Below are positions 37,905-41,468 of a stretch of DNA of 64,000 bases, piece by piece. The notes beneath the pieces were generated by a model. It was not told the origin of the DNA. It searched no databases and saw only the letters and a list, made by a program, of their open reading frames with translations. This DNA comes from Pseudaquidulcibacter saccharophilus (GTDB taxonomy: Bacteria; Pseudomonadota; Alphaproteobacteria; Caulobacterales; Aquidulcibacteraceae). The DNA lies in contig NZ_JAHWUS010000001.1 in NCBI RefSeq assembly GCF_019455445.1, positions 496,001 through 560,000 on the forward strand. The letters run 5' to 3'. The position numbers and the translations under genes are program-made. Each line of letters begins with the position of its first letter. The first letter of the stretch is position 1.

Positions 37905-38780
37905 ATGAAAAAATTATTCCCGCTTTTAATCGCCACGCCATTTTTTCTTGCTGCTTGTGTTAATGTAAATGTTGGCAAAGATATGGTTTTAATAACCAAC
38001 AAAAATGCAGAAGAACATAAGATTAATTTTGGGACGCAACGCACTTTTGACCAAGTTAAATTGCCTTATAATTTTAGTACGCAAAGGGGTGAATTGCAGG
38101 CTTCATTTGGTAAAATTGCATATTCACAGATACAGACAGATCGCAAAAAGCCGCTCGTGGTGTTTTGCGGTGGAAATGCATTTCGCCTAAATCACAGTGG
38201 CTATAAATATGCGCAAGCGCTCGCACAATATGGCGATGTTTTTGCCTTTGATTACCCTGGGCTTGGCGATAGTACCGGCGAAGCAACTAGGGCGCAATTT
38301 GAAGAGACTTTGAAATTAGTTTCGCAAAAAACCAAAGAAATTGCCGCGCAAAATAACGGCGGTAAGATTATTTATTATGGGCATTCATTTGGTGGTGGCG
38401 TATGTTCATCACTTGCACATGATAACCCTGATGCGATTGCATTAGTGCTTGCAGGAACTTTTGCTGATTATAACGACTTTGCAAAAACCAGATTTCCCGT
38501 TAGGTCCATCATTGCAAGATTAAATATCGCCGAAGATACCCCACAATTTATCATCCCGCAATTATTAGGGGAATTTAAAGGCCCGGTATTTGTAATCGCA
38601 TCAAAAATAGATGACAGCGTTAAGTTCGAGGCAACGAAAATGCTTTATAATAAACTTGTGAAGCAGGGAAATACCGCAACGTTTATCCCGCTTGAAAATG
38701 CACCACACGGCTCTTTACCTGCCGATGCAGAAACATTGTCAAAACTGGCAATTTCATTACAAAGTTCTGGAATTGAATAA
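37905..38780 (+). CDS. Alpha/beta-hydrolase lipoprotein
   Basis: A 291-residue protein with a lipoprotein signal peptide (MKKLFPLLIATPFFLAAC, lipobox LAAC). The hydrolase fold shows VVFCGGNAFRLNHSGY, FAFDYPGLGDSTGEATR, the nucleophile elbow YGHSFGGGV (Ser), and ENAPHGSLP with the likely catalytic His. The acid may be the Asp in ASKIDDSVKFE. It resembles the Hydrolase_4/BAAT-like proteins such as YfhR-type membrane-anchored hydrolases. Substrate unknown. Its stop codon directly abuts the stop of the convergent 895-residue gene. Confidence 0.85.
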   Translation: MKKLFPLLIATPFFLAACVNVNVGKDMVLITNKNAEEHKINFGTQRTFDQVKLPYNFSTQRGELQASFGKIAYSQIQTDRKKPLVVFCGGNAFRLNHSGYKYAQALAQYGDVFAFDYPGLGDSTGEATRAQFEETLKLVSQKTKEIAAQNNGGKIIYYGHSFGGGVCSSLAHDNPDAIALVLAGTFADYNDFAKTRFPVRSIIARLNIAEDTPQFIIPQLLGEFKGPVFVIASKIDDSVKFEATKMLYNKLVKQGNTATFIPLENAPHGSLPADAETLSKLAISLQSSGIE

Positions 38781-41468
38781 TTAGGCGCTAAGTTTTGCCA
38801 ATGCCGCAGCATATTGTGCCGCTTGTGAATTATAGGCCGCTACCGCTGCGGCACTTCCGGTTTTAGAACTTTTGGCCGCGGCTTTACTTTGTTTGCGTGC
38901 TGCAACCATATCTGGGTCATCGGAAATGGCGCGATAAGCACTTCTAATGCGGCTTAAAACACTCGATAATTGGCTTGAAACCAATGTTGCAGAAGCCTTG
39001 TCCGAAGTGTCAACTTCGCTTGGTAATTCAAGGGCAACAACAGGGATATTATTAGTTCCGGTTGTTACTGCGGTGGTTGATGCGGTTGAACCATTGGTAA
39101 TAAAGCCTTCGTTTAGACCCAATTGTGCGAGAGCATCGGCCTTTGCACTGCCGGCCTTAAGCTCAATTGTGTTAGCGTTTTTGGCGCTTATTGAAAGATA
39201 TTTATTGCCATTAGAGCCAGAAACGCTAGTGGTTCCATTAGAGCCAAGGTATTTCTTTATTTTATCTTGCAGGCTAACAAGGGTTTCCCCACTATCAATT
39301 GTAATTTTGCGATCGGTTTTACCATTTACTGATAGGTAGAAATAATCGCCCGCCCGAAGCCCTGTTAAATCAGTAAGCGATTTTGTGTTGTCAAAATTAA
39401 GCTCACCTTGCGGAAGGCCAAGAGCCTGCAATGATTTTGATTGGTTTTGGGTCGAAATAACGGTAACGTTTGAATTTGCCTCGCCAAGTGCGGCCACAGA
39501 ATAAACCTGTGAACCATCGTTTAAGGCAAAGCCTTTTAACAAGGTTTGACGTGCAGTAGTATCTTTTGCCAATTCATCGGTTGTGCCTTCAAGGGCAACA
39601 TTTACCAAATTGCCATCGACACTAAAGTTACGAACTGGGCTGCCAGCCAAATCTTCTGAGAAGGTTGTGGCCCCTGTCAAAAGATTTATCCCGCGTATTT
39701 GGTCATTAACATTACCAAGCGCTGTATTCCCGGCAACAATTGCATTGCCTGCGGCATCAATTTCAAGCCCCGAAATGGTTGCAACGCCGTTGCTGGAAGT
39801 TAGGTAGTCCGCGGCAGCGAAATTACCGGTTGCAGTGTCAAGGCGGCTTATATGCCCTTCTGTTTCAGTATTCCATGCAACATAGGCTTGGGAACCATTA
39901 ACTTCGATGCCAACGGGTACGTCATTTCCAGAGGTGCCAATGGTTTTGGTGTAATTGACCGCGCCAATACTATCAAATGATTGAACATATACATCGGTTC
40001 CGCCATTAGTATCCGCGCCACCATATGCCATAGAGGTTTTACCAAGTACAAGGAGGTTGCCGCTGTCATCAAATTTAAGGTCTAACGCTTGGTCGGTTCC
40101 ATACGCGCCTTTTTGATAATACCAAAGATCTTTGCCATCGGCGTCAAAAGTTGAAACAAATGAATCTGTGCCATTGCCTGTTGTTGATTTTTGGGTGTCA
40201 CCCAAACCATTTACAGAGCCTGCAATTGCCACGGTTCCATCGTTTGAAACCGCAATTGAGTAACCAGTTGCCGAAGCCTCTGACCCCAAAGAGCGTGACC
40301 ACACAACATTTCCAGCAGTGTCAATTTTTTGTAAAACTACGTCATTGGTATCTTTTGCGGCAAATTCTAGATTATTGGCATTGGTATATTTGCCATCAAT
40401 GTTCGCAACAACATAAATATTGCCATCGGCATCTTTGGTCATTGCTTTTAAATTAAGGCCTTCGGTTGCGGTGAATGCGGTTGAAGAAACTTTTTCAGTT
40501 GACCCATCAGAGGCAAGGTCAATACGCGATAATACGCTTTGCACAACTTCATCGGCTGTCGATGTTGTGGTTTTAGTTGTTGTTGTGGTGGTTGATGTTG
40601 ATTTGTTATAGGTCGCCGCACCCGCAACATAGATTGCGGTTTCTGTATCATTGCTGGCAGGGCCAAAAGTAACGTGTTCCCCGTTGCCAACAGTTACTTT
40701 AAAACTTTGCTGTTTGGTGTCGGCAACACCTTTAACGGTTGACGCCTTGGTGGTTTCCACACGGCTAAAACGGGTTTCAACACCGATTGTTGATAATTGC
40801 TCATTGATATAATTTGCAACATTGCCAACAGTTCTTTCAGTGCTTCCCATGCCAGAAAGGTCAACATCAACACTTTTGGTAACGTTATCCTCAGTAACAG
40901 AAACAGAAAATTTCACATTGCCCAAGAATTGTGATGGCACGGTATTTTCATCACCATTTGCAAGTACGTCGGTAGTATAAGTGGTAAGGGTTGAACCTAA
41001 TTTATCGGTCTTCAAAGATGAATATTTTTTACCGGAAATTAGTGTTGCGCCATCAAGGCCATTTTTACGGCATTGTGCATCAATCTCGGCAAGACCGTCC
41101 TCAATGCGTTTTTGAACTTTCTCACGCATTTTGTCGGTCATGGTGCTGCTCGTTGCATAATCGGCAAGGGCTTTTAATTTATCAACCGCATTATAGAGCA
41201 AAAATAATTCATGGTCATTTGCACTTTTTACGCCAGAACCTGCACCTGAACCTAAGCCACCGGAAAATAGTGACGGTGTATTAAGTGTTTTGGTTGCGGT
41301 TTTAACAGTATCCGCTTTAACAACACTCGAATCCCATGGGGTAAGCTTTGTAATATTTGTTGTCTTCGGTGTTGTAGTGCTAGATGTGCTAGACGTAGTT
41401 GGGGTATAGCCTGAATATGAACTCAGGATAGATAGCGCTGTCGCTGCTGAATAGCTCGAAATTGCCAC
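38781..41468 (-). CDS. Large flagellar-like protein with an inserted beta-propeller (FlaEY-like)
   Basis: An 895-residue protein. Residues 1-75: Ser/Thr-rich. Residues 85-150: flagellin-like helical region (DKMREKVQKRIEDGLAEIDA, then NGLDGATLISG). Residues ~183-270: a first hook-IN-like module (VGNVANYINEQLSTIGVETR). Residues 289-304: a Thr-rich linker. Residues ~335-665: blades with DADGNIYVVA, DDSGNLLVLG and DAAGNAIVAG, typical of SBBP-type beta-propellers. Residues ~680-790: a second hook-IN-like module (GDYFYLSVNGKTDRKITIDS, ALAQLGLNEG). Residues 820-895: Ala-rich helices. I recall a Caulobacter flagellin regulator, FlaEY, of similar size, but the match is from memory. The start is GTG; no signal peptide, consistent with flagellar-type export. 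No flagellar genes adjoin. Confidence 0.6.
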   Translation of the reverse strand: MAISSYSAATALSILSSYSGYTPTTSSTSSTTTPKTTNITKLTPWDSSVVKADTVKTATKTLNTPSLFSGGLGSGAGSGVKSANDHELFLLYNAVDKLKALADYATSSTMTDKMREKVQKRIEDGLAEIDAQCRKNGLDGATLISGKKYSSLKTDKLGSTLTTYTTDVLANGDENTVPSQFLGNVKFSVSVTEDNVTKSVDVDLSGMGSTERTVGNVANYINEQLSTIGVETRFSRVETTKASTVKGVADTKQQSFKVTVGNGEHVTFGPASNDTETAIYVAGAATYNKSTSTTTTTTKTTTSTADEVVQSVLSRIDLASDGSTEKVSSTAFTATEGLNLKAMTKDADGNIYVVANIDGKYTNANNLEFAAKDTNDVVLQKIDTAGNVVWSRSLGSEASATGYSIAVSNDGTVAIAGSVNGLGDTQKSTTGNGTDSFVSTFDADGKDLWYYQKGAYGTDQALDLKFDDSGNLLVLGKTSMAYGGADTNGGTDVYVQSFDSIGAVNYTKTIGTSGNDVPVGIEVNGSQAYVAWNTETEGHISRLDTATGNFAAADYLTSSNGVATISGLEIDAAGNAIVAGNTALGNVNDQIRGINLLTGATTFSEDLAGSPVRNFSVDGNLVNVALEGTTDELAKDTTARQTLLKGFALNDGSQVYSVAALGEANSNVTVISTQNQSKSLQALGLPQGELNFDNTKSLTDLTGLRAGDYFYLSVNGKTDRKITIDSGETLVSLQDKIKKYLGSNGTTSVSGSNGNKYLSISAKNANTIELKAGSAKADALAQLGLNEGFITNGSTASTTAVTTGTNNIPVVALELPSEVDTSDKASATLVSSQLSSVLSRIRSAYRAISDDPDMVAARKQSKAAAKSSKTGSAAAVAAYNSQAAQYAAALAKLSA

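Follow-up and report, generated by a model that had tools for sequence, protein, structure and literature searches.

FlaEY-family gene in the window

The window analysed here is a stretch of 64,000 nucleotides from Pseudaquidulcibacter saccharophilus (contig NZ_JAHWUS010000001.1, positions 496,001 to 560,000). On its minus strand, between positions 38781 and 41468, it contains an uninterrupted open reading frame (ORF) of 895 codons with a GTG start and no internal stop, which is translated into a protein of 895 amino acids (aa), the length originally predicted. We identify this protein as a member of the FlaEY family (Caulobacter FlaEY/Sphingomonas FlaQ), which is tied to flagella through its gene neighbourhood and its pattern of presence. 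As read from the sequence, FlaEY joins a D1 segment like that of flagellin to a propeller of the CylK type and a module of the FliD-D2 type (Table 1). The family name rests on gene neighbourhood and recall, because the collections searched contained no labelled FlaEY sequence. A homolog of 93% identity from Hyphomonadaceae bacterium UBA1933 (L022) likewise starts with GTG. The host genome (G000; 2.84 Mb in 12 contigs) carries FlaEY as a single copy, the sole other match being weak (E 0.145).

Table 1. Features of the FlaEY-family gene, with positions in the window and residues of the 895-aa protein
Feature	Residues	Position	Strand	Basis
FlaEY-family gene, GTG start	895 aa	38781..41468	-	ORF and translation; 93% identical homolog; family profile
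Variable N-terminal segment	1-82	41223..41468	-	no hhalign family match; hydropathy and charge
Flagellin ND1-like helices	93-149	41022..41192	-	hhalign; PDB flagellin match; Flagellin_N
First IN-like module (weak)	about 180-274	40647..40931	-	hhalign of first against second IN module (IN1, IN2); beta-beta-alpha order in model, pLDDT about 40-54
Beta-propeller	about 337-660	39489..40460	-	CylK and SBBP matches, model, motifs; far end taken from motifs and alignment rather than the model
FliD-D2-type IN module	707-790	39099..39350	-	hhalign to FliD; Foldseek; VIA-align; profile matches in FliD genes
C-terminal helices	824-894	38787..38999	-	A1 alignment; helices predicted with pLDDT under about 60; no match to any family

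Domain architecture of FlaEY

Domains were assigned with an alignment (A1) of 24 homologs, namely the 895-aa protein of the window and 23 proteins from relatives; the homolog L053 is truncated at its start. Blocks cut from the alignment were run in hhalign against 25 flagellins, 20 of 21 FliD proteins (that of L126 was left out), single FlgK, FlgL and FlgE sequences and 32 control families of neighbouring genes, flagellar ones included, with four to seven sequences each.

Residues 93-149 match the flagellins with an hhalign score of 95.5% (E 1.4e-8), whereas the top control family reaches 1.2%. Positions 95-155 of the A1 profile match flagellins in the PDB (E 7e-4), and Flagellin_N of Pfam is matched at E up to 0.1 by five of the 24 A1 members (best E 5e-4) but not by the 895-aa protein itself. 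Weak matches to the FlaEY profile in other alphaproteobacterial genomes lie inside flagellin genes (G118, G171, G211) and inside FliD genes (G118, G204). The segment ahead of the D1 match, residues 1-82, has no clear match to any of the hhalign families (best 0.5%) and may hold a flagellar type III export signal. The C-terminal end is conserved, reading NYQAALARLGG in several relatives; its helices are predicted at low confidence, and no profile match to FliD-type terminal helices was found. Axial helices had been proposed for both termini: at the N-terminus the D1 match to flagellin bears this out in part, whereas for the C-terminus there are helices in a low-confidence model but no matches.

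Residues 342-488 match the CylK propeller as a single sequence (E 1e-16), the 24-member A1 profile matches it at 2.4e-61 over positions 336-499, and the top Foldseek match of the full-length model is CylK (E 1.2e-11), followed by other propellers. The Pfam family SBBP is matched by 7/24 A1 members at E up to 0.1. Four D..GN motifs occur in residues 337-660, against a mean of 0.30 in shuffled sequences, with none of 2000 shuffles reaching four. The propeller with repeated motifs in the original prediction is thus confirmed. The expected SBBP repeats were recovered in those seven members, but the 895-aa protein alone has no family over the cut-off in Pfam and NCBIfam, the one match listed by Pfam (UN_NPL4, E 0.039) lying under it. 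Two large proteins of 3546 and 870 aa (L055:186-10826 and L056:2793-5405) were also seen, in which repeats of the propeller region are the sole part common with FlaEY.

Structure models are poor because the predictor was given two sequences only, the 895-aa protein and its L022 homolog. The full-length model has a mean pLDDT (predicted local distance difference test) of 43; propeller residues 341-550 lie mostly at 60-84 with dips, and values are low beyond residue 590. A model of the C-terminal 220 residues alone (mean pLDDT 52) contains a beta-beta-alpha-beta-beta domain at about 60-80. The relation of the second IN module to FliD is most evident in sequence: residues 707-790 score 96.2% (E 2.6e-9) against the 20 FliD proteins in hhalign, compared to 16.8% for FlgK and 1.5% for the top control. 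The first eight Foldseek matches of the FliD-like piece all bear FliD or a cap/filament-assembly complex in their titles (E from 0.006 up). VIA-align gives Z 7.6 to Pseudomonas FliD (5fhy) over 84 residues with an rmsd of 3.1, where, by the tool's own warning, a Z under 8 may reflect just a common arrangement. The first IN-like module is less clear, its top hhalign match being a control family (4.1%), and its likeness to the second is weak (21%, E 0.001). Therefore, of the two IN modules proposed earlier, the second stands as FliD-D2-like by hhalign and folds, while the first is weak. The chimera of flagellar axial segments and a propeller is supported by the flagellin D1, CylK-type and FliD-D2 matches together, and homology is not limited to non-flagellar extracellular repeat proteins.

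IN-type modules are present in FlgK too, and FlaEY might then belong to the hook-filament junction, or to the switch from hook to filament, rather than to the tip. The FlgK score of the second module, a VIA-align Z of 6.0 to Campylobacter FlgK and one weak profile match in a protein related to the host FlgE (G167) are in keeping with such a role. However, FliD outscores FlgK, though FlgK was a single sequence, and the host genome already has FlgK (contig C4, some 0.59 Mb from the FlaEY gene) together with an adjoining FlgL-like ORF of 307 aa, which is read as FlgL by its place and size. We consider that a junction role has little chance of being correct.

Gene neighbourhood of FlaEY

In five of the six family f3 genomes with a member, flagellin genes lie directly upstream of FlaEY on the same strand (L040, L042, L044, L046 and L052; not L043). 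Caulobacter flaEY has the same arrangement. The neighbours in L095 are, by Pfam, a rod-binding protein, FlgI, FliX, FlgH and FlgA; among the matches listed, the neighbours in L097 include members of all five of these clusters, and elsewhere L053 has FlgI and the rod-binding protein, L108 has FlgI and FliX, L038 has FlgI, and L099 has the rod-binding protein. The clustering table excludes L037 and L052, where ORFs overlap. In plasmid records, among the matches listed (15/17), a near-full-length member is found in Sphingobium sp. V4 alone (79% query coverage), near FliF, FlgI, FlhB and FliR, and the remaining matches are to the propeller region. No FlaEY relative was found in the viral contigs scanned or in phage records searched with the single query L042. 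In Sphingomonas sp. WG, too, FlaEY belongs to the cluster of flagellar genes (PMC8921679). The flagellar neighbourhoods in relatives, together with the flagellin- and FliD-like pieces, support the link to FlaEY drawn in the original prediction.

FlaEY homologs in L102-L104, L106 and L107 were observed beside heptose- or nucleotide-sugar-type genes, cluster 23 among these having PfkB and cytidylyltransferase domains (one representative tested). These neighbours may point to glycosylation of the filament.

In the host genome, the gene is flanked by housekeeping-type genes, as read from the neighbouring ORFs; among these a pyrD-like (dihydroorotate-dehydrogenase-like) gene lies upstream with a gap of 95 bases. 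The three flagellins of the host are on contig C6, unlinked to the FlaEY gene, and a scan of the 64-kb window for flagellin (other flagellar families were not scanned window-wide) found no flagellin-like ORF. The isolation noted earlier therefore holds in the window as regards flagellin but not as a property of the family, since relatives lie among flagellar genes. Such surroundings, and the fact that SBBP proteins are widespread, would suit a non-flagellar extracellular SBBP-repeat protein resembling flagellar proteins by chance. This is disfavoured and has next to no probability in our judgement: the flagellin and FliD matches lie far over the 32 controls, flagellar neighbourhoods recur and every one of the 14 carriers in the class survey (see below) is flagellin-positive.

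On the plus strand, at 37905-38780 of the window, is an ORF which by eye is a lipoprotein-like protein of the alpha/beta-hydrolase type and whose end abuts the stop of the convergent FlaEY gene. On contig C6, a 119-aa protein (L058:10231-10590, plus strand) which resembles flagellin (E 5e-11), by eye its C-terminal end, is located between two flagellin genes; it may be a piece of a flagellin that acts in regulation or as a chaperone.

A link to sigma-54 was sought but mostly did not hold. At a score of 13 of 15, candidate promoters occur upstream of 2/40 FlaEY genes, 13/481 background genes and 6/14 flagellins; at 12.5, the counts are 7/40 for FlaEY and 33/481 for background, four of the seven being near-copies from one genus. 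The best score upstream of the FlaEY gene of the window is 10 of 15.

Composition and export

No Sec-like signal was found in the 895-aa protein, which has no lysine or arginine in its first 20 residues and a top 12-residue hydropathy of 1.1 within the first 45; the predicted lack of a signal peptide is thus upheld by charge and hydropathy. Among the 24 members, 12-residue hydropathy near the start reaches 2.2 in L028 and at most 1.75 in the others. Cysteine is nearly absent: 21 of the 24 A1 members have none (0.014% overall) and the 895-aa protein has one, while 7/11 further members from the class and 9/10 long forms are also cysteine-free. So are all 20 FliD proteins, all 14 long flagellins, 21 of the 25 in the other flagellin set and FlgK, FlgL and FlgE of the host. 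Conserved neighbours of at least 300 aa contain 0.733% cysteine, with 11/111 lacking it; the difference is genuine but shrinks among long proteins, because neighbours of at least 700 aa hold 0.372% (3/14 without). Our literature search found no papers on cysteine-free flagellar proteins. The composition and the lack of a Sec-like N-terminus fit export via the flagellar apparatus, and FlaEY is probably an exported axial flagellar protein.

The near-absence of cysteine, as in FliD, therefore fits an exported axial protein better than the published description of FlaEY as a possible regulator (PMC8921679). The same source gives FlaE and FlaY a modulating role in flagellin expression (citing Minnich 1988) and states that in a FlaQ mutant fliC goes up and flgI goes down (citing Czieborowski 2020), which would be expected of a cytoplasmic, trans-acting regulator of flagellin synthesis. 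However, FlaEY shows homology to exported axial proteins, and no DNA- or RNA-binding domain rises above chance in Pfam or NCBIfam, one member of the 24 touching MBF1 (E 0.063). Shifts in expression would also be expected once assembly is blocked. We regard the regulator as distinctly improbable.

Occurrence with flagellin and FliD

Flagellar filaments are thought to require the distal cap FliD. In 190 alphaproteobacterial genomes, where at most four profile candidates per genome were scored and E < 1e-100 defined a full-length member, full-length FlaEY was found in 14; flagellin is present in all 14 and FliD_N in none. Flagellin_N is matched at E up to 0.001 in 116 of the genomes (in 113 over the cut-off), of which 40 have FliD_N, 14 have full-length FlaEY, none has both and 62 have neither. 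The difference between 0/14 FlaEY carriers and 40/102 other flagellin-bearing genomes with FliD_N is significant in a Fisher test that ignores relatedness (p 0.0017). FliD_N occurs in 76/385 genomes of the class in a search made without FlaEY alongside, and none of the 12 FlaEY-bearing families is among its carriers.

Closer to the host, a search of 61 relatives gave no FliD_N match, and the host genome has none either; 58 of the relatives have flagellin over the cut-off and 37 match the FlaEY profile with a best E < 1e-100. The missing FliD does not demand FlaEY, because flagellin occurs without FlaEY in 21 of the 61 relatives and, as said, without FlaEY or FliD_N in 62 of the 116 genomes; another cap, or growth without a cap, may exist in the latter. 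Lack of FliD has been described for motile Rhizobiaceae (PMC6913195) and Rhodothalassium (PMC11762602), whereas Brucella is listed with a FliD gene, unlike the Rhizobiaceae picture (PMC8781033).

Length of FlaEY and of flagellin

The sizes of the two proteins were compared using the best-scoring flagellin match per genome in stop-to-stop frames, so that further short flagellins may exist in FlaEY-less genomes. Weak flagellin matches of about 306-315 aa in G006, G012, G019 and G040, of which the first two exceed the cut-off, were taken for FlgL because of their size and excluded. In 27 relatives, FlaEY measures about 900 aa (in one case divided between two contigs) and the flagellin frames span 224-407 codons; 25 of these frames have at most 347, and in the two larger ones flagellin proper starts well inside and is about 275 aa. 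Ten relatives with a FlaEY of 1475-1560 aa (G013, G015, G020, G021, G025, G028, G030, G032, G034 and G036) all have long flagellins, in frames of 415-584. The best-scoring frames of the 21 FlaEY-less flagellin-bearing relatives are 397-659 long, and G006 additionally has two short flagellins.

In all ten long forms, the extra residues (about 580) follow the first IN module and precede the propeller, and IN-like modules are among them; the insert scores 84% to the first and 41% to the second IN module in hhalign. Homology of the insert to the long flagellins was looked for and not found (best 0.8%). The agreement in size, with few independent lineages behind it, suggests that FlaEY is tailored to its filament.

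Besides its normal FlaEY, G010 has a frame of 2229 codons (L057; C238:1852-2649), part of which matches positions 6-273 of the FlaEY profile (E 1.7e-53). It is possible that this is a giant paralog of the N-terminal part of FlaEY.

Possible role of FlaEY

Because a flagellin-lattice segment, a FliD-type module and an export-like composition are combined in FlaEY, a structural part at the filament is likely, and the tip is the likeliest location, because FliD is absent where FlaEY occurs. That FlaEY is a component of the filament tip working like FliD is, in our view, evenly balanced. As a structural protein, FlaEY would be exported via the flagellar type III apparatus and would dock by its helical segments onto the open end of the flagellin lattice, while its IN-like modules and propellers would stick outward, forming a cap or tip plate. 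It would thereby do the job of FliD in bacteria lacking it, and altered flagellin expression in mutants would be a consequence of blocked filament assembly.

In its strictest form, this proposal makes FlaEY a substitute for FliD as the filament cap in many alphaproteobacteria of the Caulobacterales and sphingomonad types that have no FliD: a flagellin D1/FliD D2 chimera, with the propellers as the cap plate, the number of IN-like spacers matched to the thickness of the filament and the label "regulator" going back to feedback from failed assembly. We put this forward tentatively, with doubt outweighing confidence.

Several observations weigh against a FliD-like cap. The D1 match points to flagellin rather than FliD, hhalign of the blocks found nothing matching the N-terminal D0 helix of flagellin, and the C-terminal block has no clear hhalign match (best 2.6%; 0.6% against the 25 flagellins). 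FliD_N (PF02465) is matched neither in the 895-aa protein nor among the 12 Pfam families listed for the 24 members. The assignment to FliD leans mainly on the sequence profile, because the FliD-like piece has no Foldseek match under E 0.001 and its VIA-align Z stays below 8, with phage tail proteins nearly equal to FliD (Z 7.2 and 7.0); both models are of low confidence, and the control families used in hhalign are smaller than the flagellin and FliD sets. To these are added the flagellin-bearing genomes and relatives without FlaEY, the published label and the FlaQ mutant, and the lack of a conspicuous sigma-54 promoter ahead of FlaEY genes, though some flagellins carry strong ones.

The same anatomy would serve a minor filament subunit or an adhesin displayed on the flagellum, in which the flagellin-like part lies along the filament, the propeller points outward to bind a ligand or surface, and the protein is dispensable for assembly. 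Beta-propellers often bind ligands, and the patchy occurrence among flagellated relatives suits an accessory part. However, matches to the flagellin N-terminal D0 and C-terminus were not found, the second IN module is nearest to FliD, and the lack of FliD in every sampled genome with full-length FlaEY would have to be coincidence or shared ancestry. We consider this alternative unlikely, yet the most serious of those weighed here.

FlaEY, with its FliD-like and flagellin-like pieces and sampled only where FliD is missing, is a direct candidate for a protein that aids flagellin polymerisation in bacteria without FliD. If the tip reading is true, a structural role would replace the old "regulator" label.

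Comparison with known systems

FlaEY is not a new kind of gene, because the family is already known by name. Neither a description of its anatomy nor a proposal of a structural or cap role was found in the literature searched (titles, abstract starts and passages, with few subscription papers), and the structural reading appears to be new. The gene agrees with the FlaEY/FlaQ family in lying beside flagellin genes, or P- and L-ring and FliX genes, in relatives of the same bacterial class, but differs in being unlinked to flagellins in the host and in an anatomy that does not suggest the published regulator role. CylK, a Friedel-Crafts alkylating enzyme, has the nearest solved propeller (to residues 342-488). 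However, the propeller alone is common to both; nothing suggests an alkylase in FlaEY, the catalytic residues lying outside the comparison. With flagellins of the FliC/FljK type FlaEY shares the ND1 match, but it is three times longer, has no D0 or C-terminal match and possesses a propeller and a FliD-type module.

The comparison with the cap FliD (HAP2) bears most directly on function. Residues 707-790 match FliD D2 in profile and fold, both proteins are cysteine-free or nearly so, and FliD is absent wherever full-length FlaEY was sampled. In contrast to FliD, FlaEY lacks FliD_N, has flagellin-like N-terminal helices and a propeller, and its terminal helices have no FliD match. FlaEY is therefore outside FliD by membership, but it may work like FliD.

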